Positions 23,408-30,415 of a DNA stretch of 30,415 nt are shown in pieces. This DNA comes from Deltaproteobacteria bacterium. GTDB lineage: Bacteria > CG2-30-53-67. Below the pieces are notes generated by a model. It did no database searches and was not told where the DNA came from. It saw nothing but the letters and a program-made list of their open reading frames with translations. Numbering within the stretch: the first letter of the stretch is position 1; each line of letters starts with the position of its first letter. The DNA lies in assembly GCA_013151235.1 (NCBI GenBank), contig JAADIO010000051.1, positions 1-30,415 of the forward strand. The letters are read 5' to 3'. The position numbers and the translations under genes were made by a program.

Positions 23408-23530
23408 GTCGTAAAAAGTCCGTTCAACCCTTCGACACGCTCAGGGCGAACGGTGTAAGTCATTGATATTCCGTTCGTGGTGAGCCTGTCGAACCATGAA
23501 CGGAATCCGAAAAACGACTTTTTACGACAC
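23408..23530. repeat. Full repeat copy (C) between promoter and tRNA
   Basis: A 123-bp copy with GTCGTAAAAAGTC at the left and GACTTTTTACGAC at the right end, followed by ACCATCA as at copy B. Inside are CTTCGACACGCTCAGGGCG and GTTCGTGGTGAGCCTGTCG. The ends can pair to close a long hairpin, and the inner GTTCGTGGTGAGCC..GAACCATGAAC part is a near-palindrome of its own. Confidence 0.85.
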
Positions 23531-25734: not shown

Positions 25735-25945
25735 GTTCGACCGGTTCACTATGCTCGGAAAGTTTAATGGACCGTTCGTGGTGAGCCTGTCGAACCATGA
25801 ACGGAACCCGAAAAATGACTTTTTACGAGACCATCAACCTTTGTGCTCTGCTTTTCCCCGTGACACCCCGTGTTCCCCGTGGTTAAATGCTTTTCGTTTC
25901 TTGCTTTGATTTTGACCTTGATTTTGCCTTTGCCATGAACGCTTT
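25735..25945. repeat. Repeat copy (D, right part) followed by debris related to 57-125
   Basis: Positions 25737-25830 contain the right half of the dispersed repeat (CGGAAAGTTTAATGGACCG, GTTCGTGGTGAGCCTGTCG, GACTTTTTACGA) but lack the left GTCGTAAAAAGTC end; the extra CGGAAAGTTTAATGGACC phrase is shared only with copy E. From about 25850 to 25945 follows CCCCGTGACACCCCGTG and CCGTGGTTAAATGC, the inverted counterpart of 57-93, with a run of TTTGCC/TTTTGACC phrases. Spurious proteins with FVVSLSNHE arise here. Confidence 0.8.
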
Positions 25946-25963: not shown

Positions 25964-26330
25964 CGTCCCAAGCAGATCGGGTAATCGCTCCGGTTTTCCG
26001 GAGAGGAAAGTCCGGGCACCACAGGGCAGGATGCTTCCTAACGGGAAGTCCCGGTGACGGGCAGGAAAGTGCCACAGAAAAGACACAGCCCCGGGAATCC
26101 CGGGGTAAAGGTGAAATGGCGGGGTAAGAGCCCACCAGTGTCCGGGTGACCGGGCAGCTCGGCAAACCCCATCCGGTGCAAGGCCAAATAGGGAGGCGTT
26201 TGAGGACGGCCCGTCCGAAGCCTCCGGGTCAGGTCGCTTGACCCCGGCGGTGACGTCGGGGCTAGATGAATGATTACCGTCCCGTCGCAGACGGGATACA
26301 GAACCCGGCTTATAGGTCTGCTTGGGACGC
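25964..26330 (+). ncRNA. rnpB: RNase P RNA (M1 RNA, bacterial type A)
   Basis: The catalytic RNA that trims the 5-prime ends of tRNA precursors. The ends pair perfectly as helix P1 (CGTCCCAAGCAGA at 25964-25976 with TCTGCTTGGGACG at 26317-26329). The universally conserved blocks are present: GAGGAAAGTCCGGGC near 26003, the ACAGAAAAGACACAGC segment, GGTGAAATGGCGGGGTAAGAG, AGATGAATGATTACC near 26264 and ACAGAACCCGGCTTAT near 26298, which forms P4 with the first block. Length of about 367 is normal. It has its own promoter. The kinase gene begins 27 bases after the end. Confidence 0.97.
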
Positions 26331-26355
26331 TTTTCTTTTCCGAAGGAAAAGAAAA
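26331..26355 (+). terminator. Hairpin between rnpB and the kinase gene
   Basis: TTTTCTTTTC (26331-26340) and GAAAAGAAAA (26346-26355) are a perfect 10-bp inverted repeat around CGAAG. It begins directly after the rnpB P1 helix. P1 followed by TTTTCTTTT could itself serve as the rnpB terminator, while the hairpin holds AAGGA (26343-26347), the likely ribosome site of the next gene, in its loop and right arm. Confidence 0.5.
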
Positions 26356-26356
26356 A

Positions 26357-27925
26357 ATGGAGCAATCGTCTGTTCTGCAGGCAATGAGGAACCCCGGCTT
26401 CTACCCGGAAGCAACCCGAAAGGTGGAACTCCGGGAGACCCATATCTCTACCCTCTTTCTCACCGACCGATTCGTCTACAAAGTCAAGAAACCGGTTGAC
26501 TTCGGATTCCTCGACTACACCACACTGAATGCCCGTCGTTTCTTCTGCGAACAGGAATTGCGCCTGAACCGACGCCTCGCAAATGATGTCTATCTACAGA
26601 TCCTTCCGGTCCGCCGGCAGGGTGACCGGATCACCCTTACGGGAGAAGAGGGAGAGGTGATTGAGTACGTCCTCAAAATGCGCCGCCTCCCGGCAGACAG
26701 GATGCTCGACACCCTTCTGATGGAAGGGAGCGTCGATCGTGAAATGATCCGCCGGATCGCCCTTCACCTGATCGGTTTTCACAGCCGGGCCGAGAGCACG
26801 CCGGAGATCTCCATCTATGGATCCCCCAGGCGCATCCGTAAGAATATCGAAGAAAACTTTGAACAGACCCGGTCCTTTATCGGTGAAACCATAGAGAAAA
26901 ACGTCTTCGAACGGATCCGAAACGATAGCCGGGCCTTCCTGGATGGAAACCGTTCTCTCCTTGAAAAACGTGTTACCGAAAAGAAGATCCGCGACTGTCA
27001 CGGCGACCTGCGCCCGGAACATATTTGCGTGCAAGAACCGATCGTTATTTTCGACTGCGTGGAGTTCAACCGCCGTTTCCGCTATTCCGACGTGGCCTGT
27101 GATCTTGCATTCCTCGCCATGGATCTCGATTTCTTCGAACAGCCCGAGCTTTCCCGCCACCTCGTCCACAACTATGCCCGCTACACCCGCGACATCGACC
27201 TGCTGCGGCTGATCCGCTTCTACAAGAGTTACCGGGCCTACGTTCGGGGGAAGGTGGAAAGCATGAAAGCGAAGGATCCCGCATTACCGGCCGGGGAGAA
27301 GGAGCGGACCCGGCGGGCCGCCCGCAGGTACTTCGCTCTCGCCGGAACTTATACCGGCGCCCGCCCGTATCTGATCATCACCTGCGGACTCACAGGGACG
27401 GGCAAGAGTACCCTGGCCTTACGCCTCGCGCAGGACCTCGACCTGCCTTTGTTCCGAAGCGATCTTGTACGCAAGGAGCTTGCCGGGATTCCCGCTTCCG
27501 CTCATCAGGATGTACCCTTTGGAGAAGGGATTTATGGAGAGGCGATGAGCCGCTGGACCTATGACGCGCTTTTAGAAAGAGGAGAAGAGGAACTCCGGAA
27601 AGGAAACCCGGTCCTTCTCGATGCGGCTTTCCTGAAAAAGGAGGAACGGAAAAAAGCGGGAAAACTGGCGCAAAAGATGAATGCGCGATTCTTCGTCATC
27701 GAAACACGCTGTCCCGAAGAGACTGCGATGCAGCGGATTCGGAAGCGGCACCAGGAAAGGGATGATCCCTCGGACGGCAGGGAGGAGATCTACCATGCCC
27801 AAAAAGAACGCTTTGATCCCGTCACAGGCCTTCCCGACGGGCCGCACATTGTCGTCAGCACCGCCGACCGGGGCGATCCCGCCCTCCGTGTGGAAATGGA
27901 AATTCTGCTGGCCGTGGAAACATGA
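26357..27925 (+). CDS. Bifunctional phosphotransferase-like / P-loop kinase protein
   Basis: A 522-residue fusion. Residues about 20-330 resemble the aminoglycoside phosphotransferase-like family (COG2187): FVYKVKKPVDFGFLDYTT near the start, the catalytic-loop motif CHGDLRPEHI (His215) and FDCVEFNRRFRYSDVACDLAF. Residues about 335-522 are a COG0645-type P-loop kinase with Walker A GLTGTGKST (344-352), FRSDLVRKEL and ETRCPEETAMQRIRKR. Such fusions are common in environmental proteobacteria, and their substrate is unknown; drug resistance should not be assumed. The frame opens inside rnpB, but I start at the ATG 26357 with AAGGA nine bases upstream. No own promoter is visible, so it may depend on read-through from rnpB. 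Confidence 0.9.
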   Translation: MEQSSVLQAMRNPGFYPEATRKVELRETHISTLFLTDRFVYKVKKPVDFGFLDYTTLNARRFFCEQELRLNRRLANDVYLQILPVRRQGDRITLTGEEGEVIEYVLKMRRLPADRMLDTLLMEGSVDREMIRRIALHLIGFHSRAESTPEISIYGSPRRIRKNIEENFEQTRSFIGETIEKNVFERIRNDSRAFLDGNRSLLEKRVTEKKIRDCHGDLRPEHICVQEPIVIFDCVEFNRRFRYSDVACDLAFLAMDLDFFEQPELSRHLVHNYARYTRDIDLLRLIRFYKSYRAYVRGKVESMKAKDPALPAGEKERTRRAARRYFALAGTYTGARPYLIITCGLTGTGKSTLALRLAQDLDLPLFRSDLVRKELAGIPASAHQDVPFGEGIYGEAMSRWTYDALLERGEEELRKGNPVLLDAAFLKKEERKKAGKLAQKMNARFFVIETRCPEETAMQRIRKRHQERDDPSDGREEIYHAQKERFDPVTGLPDGPHIVVSTADRGDPALRVEMEILLAVET

Positions 27926-27999: not shown

Positions 28000-29082
28000 T
28001 CATCTGAAGATCCCCGAGAGATTCTCAATCCCCGGGGGGGCACTTGCAAAAACCCGTTCCCAGACTTCCCGGCTCTCCATGCAGAGATAGACGGGAACCT
28101 TCGACCCGTAACTCCGGATCCACTCCACCATTTTTCGGTAGGCCGGAACCCGGATGGAGCGCAGATAGCGCATCTTCCCGTCCGGACAGGGAATGAATTC
28201 CCCCGTGACGATCGGACTCTCCGGAAAGCGCTCCCGCATGATCTCCTTCAGCGCCGGCGGAAAACGGAGCCCTCCCAGGCTGATCCATGCAATTCCTTCG
28301 GGATCAACGGATCTCATGATCGCCTCCACGACACCTGAATACGCCCCCTCCCATCCTTCATCGAGGATCATCGGATCAAAATGAAAGGCGATTTTGTACC
28401 CCGCCGCCCGGCACCGTTTTGCCGCGAGGAGACGATCCGTGAGAGACGCCGCTCCCCGTTCTTCCGCGGTAATGATTGCTTCGGGATTAACCGACCAGCC
28501 GATCACCGTCCGGCCGCGGGGATCAAGGTCAAGAAGATTCTCTATGTGATCGGTCTTGGTCTTCAATTCAAGAAGCGCATTTGTCTGCCGGGCGAAAAAG
28601 GGAACAAGTTCCCGGGAGAGACCGGTCAACGGGTCGAGGGCCAGGCTGTCCGTCAGCTCTCCCGTACCGATCCGGAAGATCCGACCGGGACGCGCTGCAA
28701 AAAGGGTCTCCAGCCGGGAGAGGATCTCCCCGGTATTCACAAAAATCCGGAGGATCGGATTATTCCGGAGGTAAAGCTGCAAGATACAGTAGGTGCAGTC
28801 AAGAGGGCAACCGGTGGCGGCATTGAGGACGGTATAGTTGCAGCAGATGAATCCCTGCGTACCGGGACACTTCTTAACGAACGCACCGGGGAAGGAGGAG
28901 AGAAAAAGAACCTGCTTGCCCGCCCCCTGCGGATCCCCCTCCTGCAGAAGGGGTCGAAAGATCGGATCAGGCTCATCCACAATCTCCGCGGGAAGGCCGG
29001 GAAAACGGGCGACAATCTCTTGTGTGACCGGCAAAGTTTCCACCCCGGCCTCAAGAAAGATCCGCTCTATTGGATATTCCAT
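28000..29082 (-). CDS. Spore photoproduct lyase family radical SAM protein
   Basis: A 360-residue radical SAM enzyme. The iron-sulphur cluster motif is CPLDCTYC (Cys92, Cys96, Cys99), preceded by FICCNYTVLNAATG and followed by ILQLYLRNNPILRIFVN, the arrangement of SplB and its relatives, which cleave a thymine dimer in spore DNA. The later parts RIGTGELTDSLALD, LELKTKTDHIENLL, VIGWSVNPE and YKIAFHFDPMI also match the family. The segment where SplB has its hydrogen-donor Cys (as I recall, in an A-C-T-S-D context) reads GELTDS without Cys, so the reaction may differ. It follows the ParB-like gene on the same strand after 28 bases, with GGAGG about ten bases before the ATG, and converges on the kinase gene. 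Confidence 0.85.
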   Translation of the reverse strand: MEYPIERIFLEAGVETLPVTQEIVARFPGLPAEIVDEPDPIFRPLLQEGDPQGAGKQVLFLSSFPGAFVKKCPGTQGFICCNYTVLNAATGCPLDCTYCILQLYLRNNPILRIFVNTGEILSRLETLFAARPGRIFRIGTGELTDSLALDPLTGLSRELVPFFARQTNALLELKTKTDHIENLLDLDPRGRTVIGWSVNPEAIITAEERGAASLTDRLLAAKRCRAAGYKIAFHFDPMILDEGWEGAYSGVVEAIMRSVDPEGIAWISLGGLRFPPALKEIMRERFPESPIVTGEFIPCPDGKMRYLRSIRVPAYRKMVEWIRSYGSKVPVYLCMESREVWERVFASAPPGIENLSGIFR

Positions 29083-29110
29083 CCGGTATGGACCTCCCGA
29101 AAAAATCGAT

Positions 29111-30094
29111 CTATGAATTCAACTGTTTCAGAGAGGCCAGGATCTTTCCGGTTTCCTCCCGGTCCGCAATCCCATTCAGCGAGGCGGTCCGCTCCCGGAG
29201 TTCATCGACGGAGCCGAACCGGAAATGCACCTCAACCTTCTCTCCTTCCAGAAAAGAGGGGAGGAACAGTTGAACCTCCCGCGGACACACCTTTTTCAGC
29301 AAAGAATTCAGGGTTGCGCACTGTTCCGTAAGCTCCGGGAATCGAAATTCCCGCAAGACCTCCTCGACTCTTTCCCGAATCTGGGTGGACGTTAAGTCAC
29401 GGTTTTCCCGCAGGAGGGAGATTTCGGGGCGTTCCAGGATTTTTCCGGGTGTGGTTTTCTCCCTCAGGGCGATCTCTTCGAGGAAGTCGACCAGTTTCCG
29501 GAGAGCATTCCCGCCGAACGTGACCCTCTGCAGCATTCCCTCCAGGGAGCGTTGCCCCGTCTCCGGCCAGGCGGCAATACGGGTGCAGACCCGAACCGGG
29601 ATGTTATGCAAAACAACATAATTTTGGAGCTTGCCGGTCAACCGGACAAGACCCGCATACTGTTTGTAAAGACGATCGCACGGGGAGATCCCGAGTTGAT
29701 TCATCACCTCGTTGCGTGTTGCCCTATCGACGCCGAAGTCCGAGACCAGGCGATGGAGGCACCGGCCCCGTTCAATATTGTTGACCGGACGGACCGCCAG
29801 ATTTTCCCGGATGCCCGCCAGGTAAAGATCAAGATCACCAACCTCCACCCCGACAACCCGGGCCGGCACTTGCCGGATACCCACCCTTTTTGCAGCCGCC
29901 ACCCGGCGATGGCCGCAAACAATCCGGAACAACCCCGTACCGAGGTCCTGCAGAAACAGGGGAACCAAAACCCCCGACGCCTTTACCGAGGGAAGGAGTT
30001 CCTCTACATTCTCGGGGAAAGCGAAGGCAAACCGCTTGTCCGATCCATCAATCCGGTCCAGGGGAACCTCTTCAAAACGGTCGTATTTCATCAT
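29111..30094 (-). CDS. ParB-like N-terminal domain protein
   Basis: A 327-residue protein whose first 120 residues follow the ParB/Srx-like nucleotide-binding domain: EEVPLDRID near the start, SVKASGVLVPLFLQ, CGHRRVAAAKRVG (the place of the GERR CTP-binding box of true ParB) and ENLAVRPVNNIERGR (the ENxxR box). A helical segment with a possible helix-turn-helix follows (NQLGISPCDRLYKQYAGLV), and the C-terminal third has no recognised domain. It is not next to parA, gidB or the origin region, so it is probably not the chromosomal ParB. AAGGA is six bases before the first ATG. It is co-oriented with the SPL-like gene, 28 bases apart, and the two probably form an operon. Confidence 0.8.
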   Translation of the reverse strand: MMKYDRFEEVPLDRIDGSDKRFAFAFPENVEELLPSVKASGVLVPLFLQDLGTGLFRIVCGHRRVAAAKRVGIRQVPARVVGVEVGDLDLYLAGIRENLAVRPVNNIERGRCLHRLVSDFGVDRATRNEVMNQLGISPCDRLYKQYAGLVRLTGKLQNYVVLHNIPVRVCTRIAAWPETGQRSLEGMLQRVTFGGNALRKLVDFLEEIALREKTTPGKILERPEISLLRENRDLTSTQIRERVEEVLREFRFPELTEQCATLNSLLKKVCPREVQLFLPSFLEGEKVEVHFRFGSVDELRERTASLNGIADREETGKILASLKQLNS

Positions 30095-30415
30095 TTGCGG
30101 TCCTTTTACCCTCTATAATCAAAATTGACAAGGCCCCCCTTTTCCCCTATGCTTGCCATCTGAGCGGCCGGGTGCTCCCTCTTTCACCGTAGAGGAAGGG
30201 AAGGGGCGCACCGGGTCAACCAAGACGCTGTATGTCGGTGTTCTTGCCGGCATTTTTGATGAAGTCGTAAAAAGTCACGAAGCCCTTCGACCCTTCGGCC
30301 GGCTCAGGACGAACGGTGTAAGTTATTGATATTCCGTTCGTGTGGTTCGGAAAGTTTAATGGACCGTTCGTGGTGAGCCTGTCGAACCATGAACGGAATC
30401 CGGAAAACGACTTTT
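30095..30415. repeat. Intergenic region with repeat copy (E), cut by the window end
   Basis: No gene is visible. From 30264 to the end lies a long copy of the dispersed repeat: GTCGTAAAAAGTC at 30264, CGGCTCAGGACGAACGG, GTTATTGATATTCCGTTCG, an inserted CGGAAAGTTTAATGGACC phrase as in copy D, TGGTGAGCCTGTCGAACC and the start of GACTTTTTACGAC, cut off at 30415. Positions 30095-30263 hold the upstream region of the ParB-like gene and a GC-rich stretch near 30160-30215; no clear promoter was found on the minus strand. Confidence 0.75.

Follow-up and report, generated by a model that had tools for sequence, protein, structure and literature searches.

A ParB-like protein and a radical SAM enzyme with the spore photoproduct lyase fold are co-inherited, together with a glycosyltransferase, in Desulfobacterota and other bacterial phyla

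Starting from a 30,415-nucleotide stretch of DNA (the window, which is contig C51 of a 2.6-Mb genome that is 99% complete), we find that a ParB-like protein and a radical SAM enzyme with the fold of spore photoproduct lyase (SPL) are encoded together in distant bacteria, often alongside a glycosyltransferase of one GT2 subfamily. This strictly co-inherited trio, which has no described function, is present in over half of the Desulfobacterota genomes sampled and also turns up in several other phyla. Our best reading is that of a widespread module, undescribed as far as we found, shared by many little-studied bacteria. The joint inheritance of a radical SAM enzyme whose fold is one of DNA repair, an adaptor of ParB type and a catalytically intact glycosyltransferase suggests modification of nucleic acid, and we put at roughly 0.4 the probability that the three form a housekeeping module acting in this way. 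Its substrate would most likely be DNA, which the SPL and ParB folds make likelier than other substrates.

The ParB-like and SPL-like genes pair far beyond chance

The two genes lie on the minus strand of the window, with the ParB-like gene upstream (P0002, 327 aa; 29111..30094) and the SPL-like radical SAM gene downstream (P0001, 360 aa; 28000..29082), separated by a 28-bp gap (29083..29110) that contains a GGGAGG ribosome-binding-like site. An earlier note, made from the sequence alone, had described two co-directional genes 28 bases apart with ParB-type and SPL-family domains. Both open frames were indeed found there, and Pfam bears out both assignments, with ParB_N matching P0002 at 1.5e-9 (aa 27-99) and SPL matching P0001 at 1.3e-33 (aa 86-289). 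The convergent neighbour at 26270-27925, in which APH-like and AAA_33 P-loop kinase domains are combined in a single protein, is not kept beside the pair elsewhere. A dispersed palindromic repeat (GTTCGACAGGCTCACCACGAAC plus flanks) has intergenic copies at 23473-23494, 25774-25795 and 30366-30387; one copy sits at the end of the contig, which probably ends where it does because of this repeat, and another lies on contig C55 of the same genome, just 3' of the GT2 gene.

The closest named relatives of this genome are MAGs filed as CG2-30-53-67-type Nitrospirae. Among the eight genomes examined of its candidate phylum, five carry an SPL-like gene (twice in one genome), every copy has a ParB-like gene directly upstream, and the three relatives free of SPL possess only partition ParB, the dedicated ParB-like gene being absent. 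When the family alignment was used to scan 84,980 genomes, 44 loci came up, and in 43 of them the SPL frame was usable. The pair, which the earlier note would have put down to chance if it were confined to a few close relatives, spans phyla: in 23 of the 43 loci a dedicated ParB-like gene lies upstream of SPL on the same strand, either immediately next to it or with one gene between, and the source records of these loci name Schekmanbacteria, Deltaproteobacteria, Calditrichota, Wallbacteria and UBP16, among others. Identities among relatives fall to 37% for the SPL-like and 18% for the ParB-like protein, and the pairwise distances of the two correlate over the 23 loci with an r of 0.94, uncorrected for common descent. 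For the 19 genomes in which the SPL-like gene lacks a ParB-like neighbour, the whole genome was searched with the ParB alignment; a full-length dedicated ParB-like gene lies elsewhere in 15 of them (split in two in one case), and a further genome has a fragment.

The same association holds in Desulfobacterota. A strong SPL match is present in 139 of 247 genomes, and 123 of these also have a dedicated ParB-like gene by profile, as against 6 of the 108 genomes without SPL. The initial set of 16 SPL-only genomes was inflated by the profile threshold, since inspection of most exceptions revealed ten more genomes in which the partner, or its C-terminal half, stands beside SPL (133/139). Two of the six SPL genes still without a partner begin at a contig edge, and three of the six ParB-like genes without SPL also sit at contig edges. 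The two genes are adjacent in 77 of the 123 genomes carrying both. The link between them is thus well supported, and the functional connection proposed in the earlier note stands, because adjacency and genome-wide co-occurrence, whether the genes are linked or not, reach far past close relatives.

A GT2 subfamily belongs to the same unit

While the earlier note took the pair to be the unit, this proved too narrow, for a GT2 glycosyltransferase subfamily also belongs to it: 126 of the 247 Desulfobacterota genomes have all three genes and 98 have none, with 23 deviating. The GT2 gene often lies directly upstream of the ParB-like gene in several phyla, giving the order GT2-ParB-SPL, and the genes overlap or nearly touch in Schekmanbacteria, Calditrichota and many Desulfobacterota. 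The subfamily alignment draws a sharp line between its members and other GT2 genes (E ≤1e-84 versus ≥1e-64), and its invariant residues (D37, D38, D85, D87, E173 and D174) indicate a dedicated enzyme with predicted catalytic residues intact. The window's genome carries the GT2 gene on a different contig (C55:105341-106147, 410 bits); the gene is found in three of the four SPL-carrying relatives and is absent from the three relatives without SPL. Among the 139 SPL genomes, seven have the ParB-like partner but no member of the GT2 subfamily and four have GT2 but no ParB-like gene. In one genome (L148) GT2 directly precedes SPL, the ParB-like gene being absent. No fourth universal member was found among the examined loci, other neighbours (PurC, EF-G-like, a secreted nuclease-like protein, ClpP/ClpX genes) being lineage-specific.

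Fisher tests for co-occurrence of the trio gave p values of 1e-46 to 1e-53, uncorrected for shared ancestry. The unrelated gene COX1, used as a control, showed only a weak association in the same survey (odds ratio 0.55, p 0.04), which means that associations as strong as those of the trio do not arise throughout the sample. Could chance adjacency or shared ancestry alone produce this pattern? In Desulfobacterota inheritance is vertical for two of the genes and often for all three, and the statistics are phylogenetically uncorrected. However, the order GT2-ParB-SPL recurs in different phyla, co-occurrence persists when the genes are unlinked, the COX1 association is weak, and the window's phylum includes a genus in which the SPL and ParB-like genes are both present in one genome and both absent from the other. 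We consider this explanation scarcely credible.

Several observations concern individual lineages. Two genomes, L151 (a single contig of 1.09 Mb) and L049 (Termititenax), keep an SPL-like gene with neither a ParB-like nor a GT2 partner, which suggests some partner-free function. At 16 Desulfobacterota loci (e.g., L028, 11195-11908) a predicted secreted staphylococcal-nuclease-like gene lies directly 3' of SPL, and the gene after that, on the opposite strand, is EF-G-like. Some Desulfobacterota have an additional SPL-like gene (160-210 bits) that is more distant, belongs to another subfamily and does not track the ParB-like partner. Other origins and settings were considered as well. A phage or plasmid origin was rejected, as relatives sought in viral contigs were not found; plasmids and two phage contigs yielded only distant SPL-family proteins with 26-31% identity, the two phage-labelled contigs (L173, human faeces) carrying a fusobacterial-type SPL-like gene. 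PADLOC gave no match to a defence system. A distribution restricted to anaerobes is not claimed, COX1 being weakly anticorrelated and one carrier being apparently an ocean-water MAG by its record accession.

Catalytic residues kept and lost

The AlphaFold2 model of P0001 (pLDDT 89.8) superposes on spore photoproduct lyase (PDB 4fhf) with a Z of 37.0 and an rmsd of 2.0 Å over 324 of 360 residues, the next-best radical SAM fold reaching a Z of 14.8. The CX3CX2C motif for the radical SAM iron-sulfur cluster (C92, C96 and C99; 28786..28809, minus strand) is intact and invariant in all 35 aligned relatives. Equally invariant are three further cysteines, C72, C80 and C81, in a motif (KKCPGTQGFICC; 28840..28869, minus strand) that is absent from Bacillus SplB, and Cys-334 is invariant as well. 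In B. subtilis SPL the catalytic residues are Cys-141 and Tyr-99 (PMC5368176), which correspond to the hydrogen donor Cys-140 and the relay Tyr-98 in Geobacillus numbering. Alignments to SPL and its relatives place Glu-142 at the donor position in 35/35 SPL-like proteins, within a GTGELTDS motif (28645..28668, minus strand), and the relay position is occupied by Ile in 30, Phe in two, Val in two and Ala in one, never by Tyr. By its model, the SPL-like enzyme thus keeps the complete SPL fold, minus two residues that spore photoproduct lyase uses in catalysis. P0001 scores 120.7 bits against TIGR04070 (cut-off 400) and 63.2 bits against TIGR03886 (cut-off 437.55), the curated SPL equivalogs, and both P0001 and P0002 fall far under every equivalog cut-off in NCBIfam. 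With both residues lost and scores this low, lesion repair by SP-lyase chemistry is not to be assumed. In a tree of 53 proteins, a branch with 100/99 support sets the family, together with the fusobacterial type, apart from Bacillus SplB and the usual SPL-family proteins.

The earlier note had suggested DNA repair or modification; the SPL and ParB-type folds do favour nucleic acid as the target, and it is the repair chemistry of SP lyase that does not carry over. A different form of repair can be envisaged in which the SPL-fold enzyme reverses a lesion with C72 as donor in place of Cys-140, a ParB-like clamp delivers it, and GT2 is separate or accessory. In the alignment C72 falls on residue 76 of Geobacillus SPL, which we take as the counterpart of Cys-74, the donor of the clostridial enzyme (described for C. 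acetobutylicum in PMC5368176), making C72 a candidate donor; this is a lead, not a proof, as the comparison chain was solely the 4rh0 mutant C140A/S76C, and the alignment rests partly on a cysteine put in by mutation. Repair would also fit the full SPL fold, the clamp-type partner and the absence of a PF00875-family photolyase from the window's genome. Against it stand the loss of Cys-140 and Tyr-98 in 35/35, a tightly tied glycosyltransferase with no obvious role in repair, and the dark habitats (groundwater, sediment) that record names give for several carriers. It also counts against repair that SASP (PF00269), the spore-DNA protein that makes DNA form spore photoproduct, is absent from the whole genome of the window. 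The earlier note had remarked on the lack of sporulation genes in the fragment, and SASP was the sole marker with which this was checked. Since GT2 belongs to the unit, a plain repair enzyme becomes less likely and modification more likely, and we judge repair to be rather improbable.

P0002 was also modeled with confidence (pLDDT 93.4), and the best structural matches are PadC, ParB, Noc and KorB. Its ParB_N domain, of the CTPase fold (aa 27-99; 29798..30016, minus strand), retains the phosphate-binding motifs GxxR (aa 61-64) and EN..R..N..E (aa 97-108). The catalytic Gln for CTP hydrolysis (Q52 of M. xanthus ParB) is replaced by Val-44 in P0002 and lost in 22 of 24 family members, the other two keeping Gln. 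A 2025 survey found that nucleotide choice in the ParB fold is not predictable from sequence (PMC12704722), and we therefore leave the nucleotide unnamed. The HTH domain is weakly recognisable, as the HTH_ParB profile matches 3 of the 24 members, and aa 89-209 of P0002 match the DNA-binding domain of Noc with a Z of 7.0; net charge of the domains was uninformative. A role as a partition ParB was rejected: the LG-R/K-GL motif for ParA binding was not found in P0002, no parA was found among the examined neighbours, and the genome has a separate parAB elsewhere, with LGKGL.

The C-terminal half of P0002 (aa 150-327; 29114..29647, minus strand) matched no Pfam family and, within the P0002 model, gave no convincing match in structural libraries. 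It is nevertheless the part that some lineages keep alone beside the SPL gene, in at least ten genomes, and in one genome (L156, 1061-2617) SPL shares its reading frame with a 65-residue segment of this half (E 2e-4), an apparent fusion. These C-terminal-half-only partners and the fusion suggest physical contact, with this half as the putative part touching the SPL-like enzyme. They also bear on the regulatory role that the earlier note had allowed for the ParB-like protein. Transcriptional control of the adjoining gene, in the style of VirB or KorB, would suit the short intergenic gaps and the presence of KorB and Noc among the fold relatives. Yet the co-occurrence of ParB-like and SPL-like genes is equally strict when they are unlinked, and because several lineages retain the C-terminal half next to SPL without ParB_N, and one apparently fuses a piece to the enzyme, such a role is disfavoured and in our estimation very unlikely.

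Possible function and relation to known systems

In the module that we propose, the ParB-type domains of the ParB-like protein would bind a nucleotide and DNA, and the C-terminal half of that protein would hold the radical SAM enzyme. The enzyme would generate a 5'-deoxyadenosyl radical to activate a C-H bond on a base, and the GT2 enzyme might then add a sugar to the product. We know of no radical SAM enzyme that primes DNA for glycosylation, and GT2 enzymes are usually glycan-building, which counts against DNA modification. The target could instead be RNA, a nucleotide, a peptide, another small molecule or a surface glycan, the ParB-like fold serving as a nucleotide-binding adaptor, as in SbnI/SerK, and not as a DNA clamp. 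The ParB/Srx fold does include kinases such as the serine kinase SbnI/SerK, some lineages drop ParB_N and HTH and keep only the C-terminal half, and radical SAM and GT2 enzymes occur together in small-molecule pathways such as that of mycofactocin. An arsenosugar or mycofactocin glycosyltransferase was rejected, since subfamily members score far under those cut-offs. Several points speak against a non-DNA target: the fold is that of SPL and not a general radical SAM fold, most partners retain the ParB-like DNA-binding fold, a precursor-peptide gene has no room between the overlapping operon genes, and unlinked GT2 genes lie in unrelated neighbourhoods that share no single common glycan cluster. 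We regard a target other than DNA as a serious but doubtful alternative.

Returning to DNA modification, its most specific form, which we hold only tentatively and by analogy, would be an oxygen-independent hypermodification in which a ParB-derived clamp chooses or scans sites, an anaerobic counterpart of base J. Base J depends on Fe(II)/2-oxoglutarate thymine hydroxylases that use O2. Its likeness to the trio, like that of other sugar-bearing DNA modifications, would be one of working parts only (a base-activating enzyme, a glycosyltransferase and a DNA-binding protein). Such a pathway, if it exists, would be common on Desulfobacterota chromosomes, and if the trio modifies DNA at all, a large bacterial phylum alters its chromosomes, with no need of oxygen, in a hitherto unrecognised way. 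Should the trio act in repair instead, this would be a new route of radical SAM repair that operates outside spores. A description of the module (ParB with photoproduct lyase, radical SAM or glycosyltransferase) was not found in the openly licensed literature, and accounts may exist elsewhere.

Among characterised proteins, SplB (TIGR04070, PF20903; PDB 4fhc-4fhg and 4rh0) shares with P0001 the whole fold, CX3CX2C and the first Tyr of CxYC (Y98 in P0001). The P0001 family differs by Glu-142 for Cys-140, Ile-100 (30/35) for Tyr-98, the extra CX7CC cysteines, its separate clade and, in the window's genome, the absence of SASP. Closer in some respects is the clostridial and fusobacterial SPL with donor Cys-74 (C. 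acetobutylicum), which lies on the same side of the 100/99 branch, has a Cys upstream of the cluster motif and shows similar LELKTKT/IELRTKS and FDP motifs; the GTGE motif, the CC pair, the C-terminal CMES motif and the gene partners set P0001 apart. SplB-like enzymes linked to DUF4130, ImuB-C and SOS genes (PMC3765255) are likewise SPL-family proteins in a non-spore-forming context with a proposed DNA role, but they have other partners, and ParB is not mentioned in that paper. A Roseomonas plasmid (L175, 1-3165) shows a second and distinct pairing between ParB-type and SPL genes: there two SPL-family genes directly follow repA-repB, RepB being a ParB-family protein. ParB of ParABS systems and orphan ParB-fold proteins (PMC12704722) share the ParB_N fold, GxxR and EN..R with P0002, whereas P0002 has neither ParA-binding motif nor parA neighbour, belongs to a family in which the catalytic Gln is lost in 22/24, and possesses a C-terminal half of its own. 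The text of that survey mentions neither radical SAM nor photoproduct lyase, and whether the trio modifies or repairs DNA, orphan ParB-fold proteins gain a concrete enzymatic partner.
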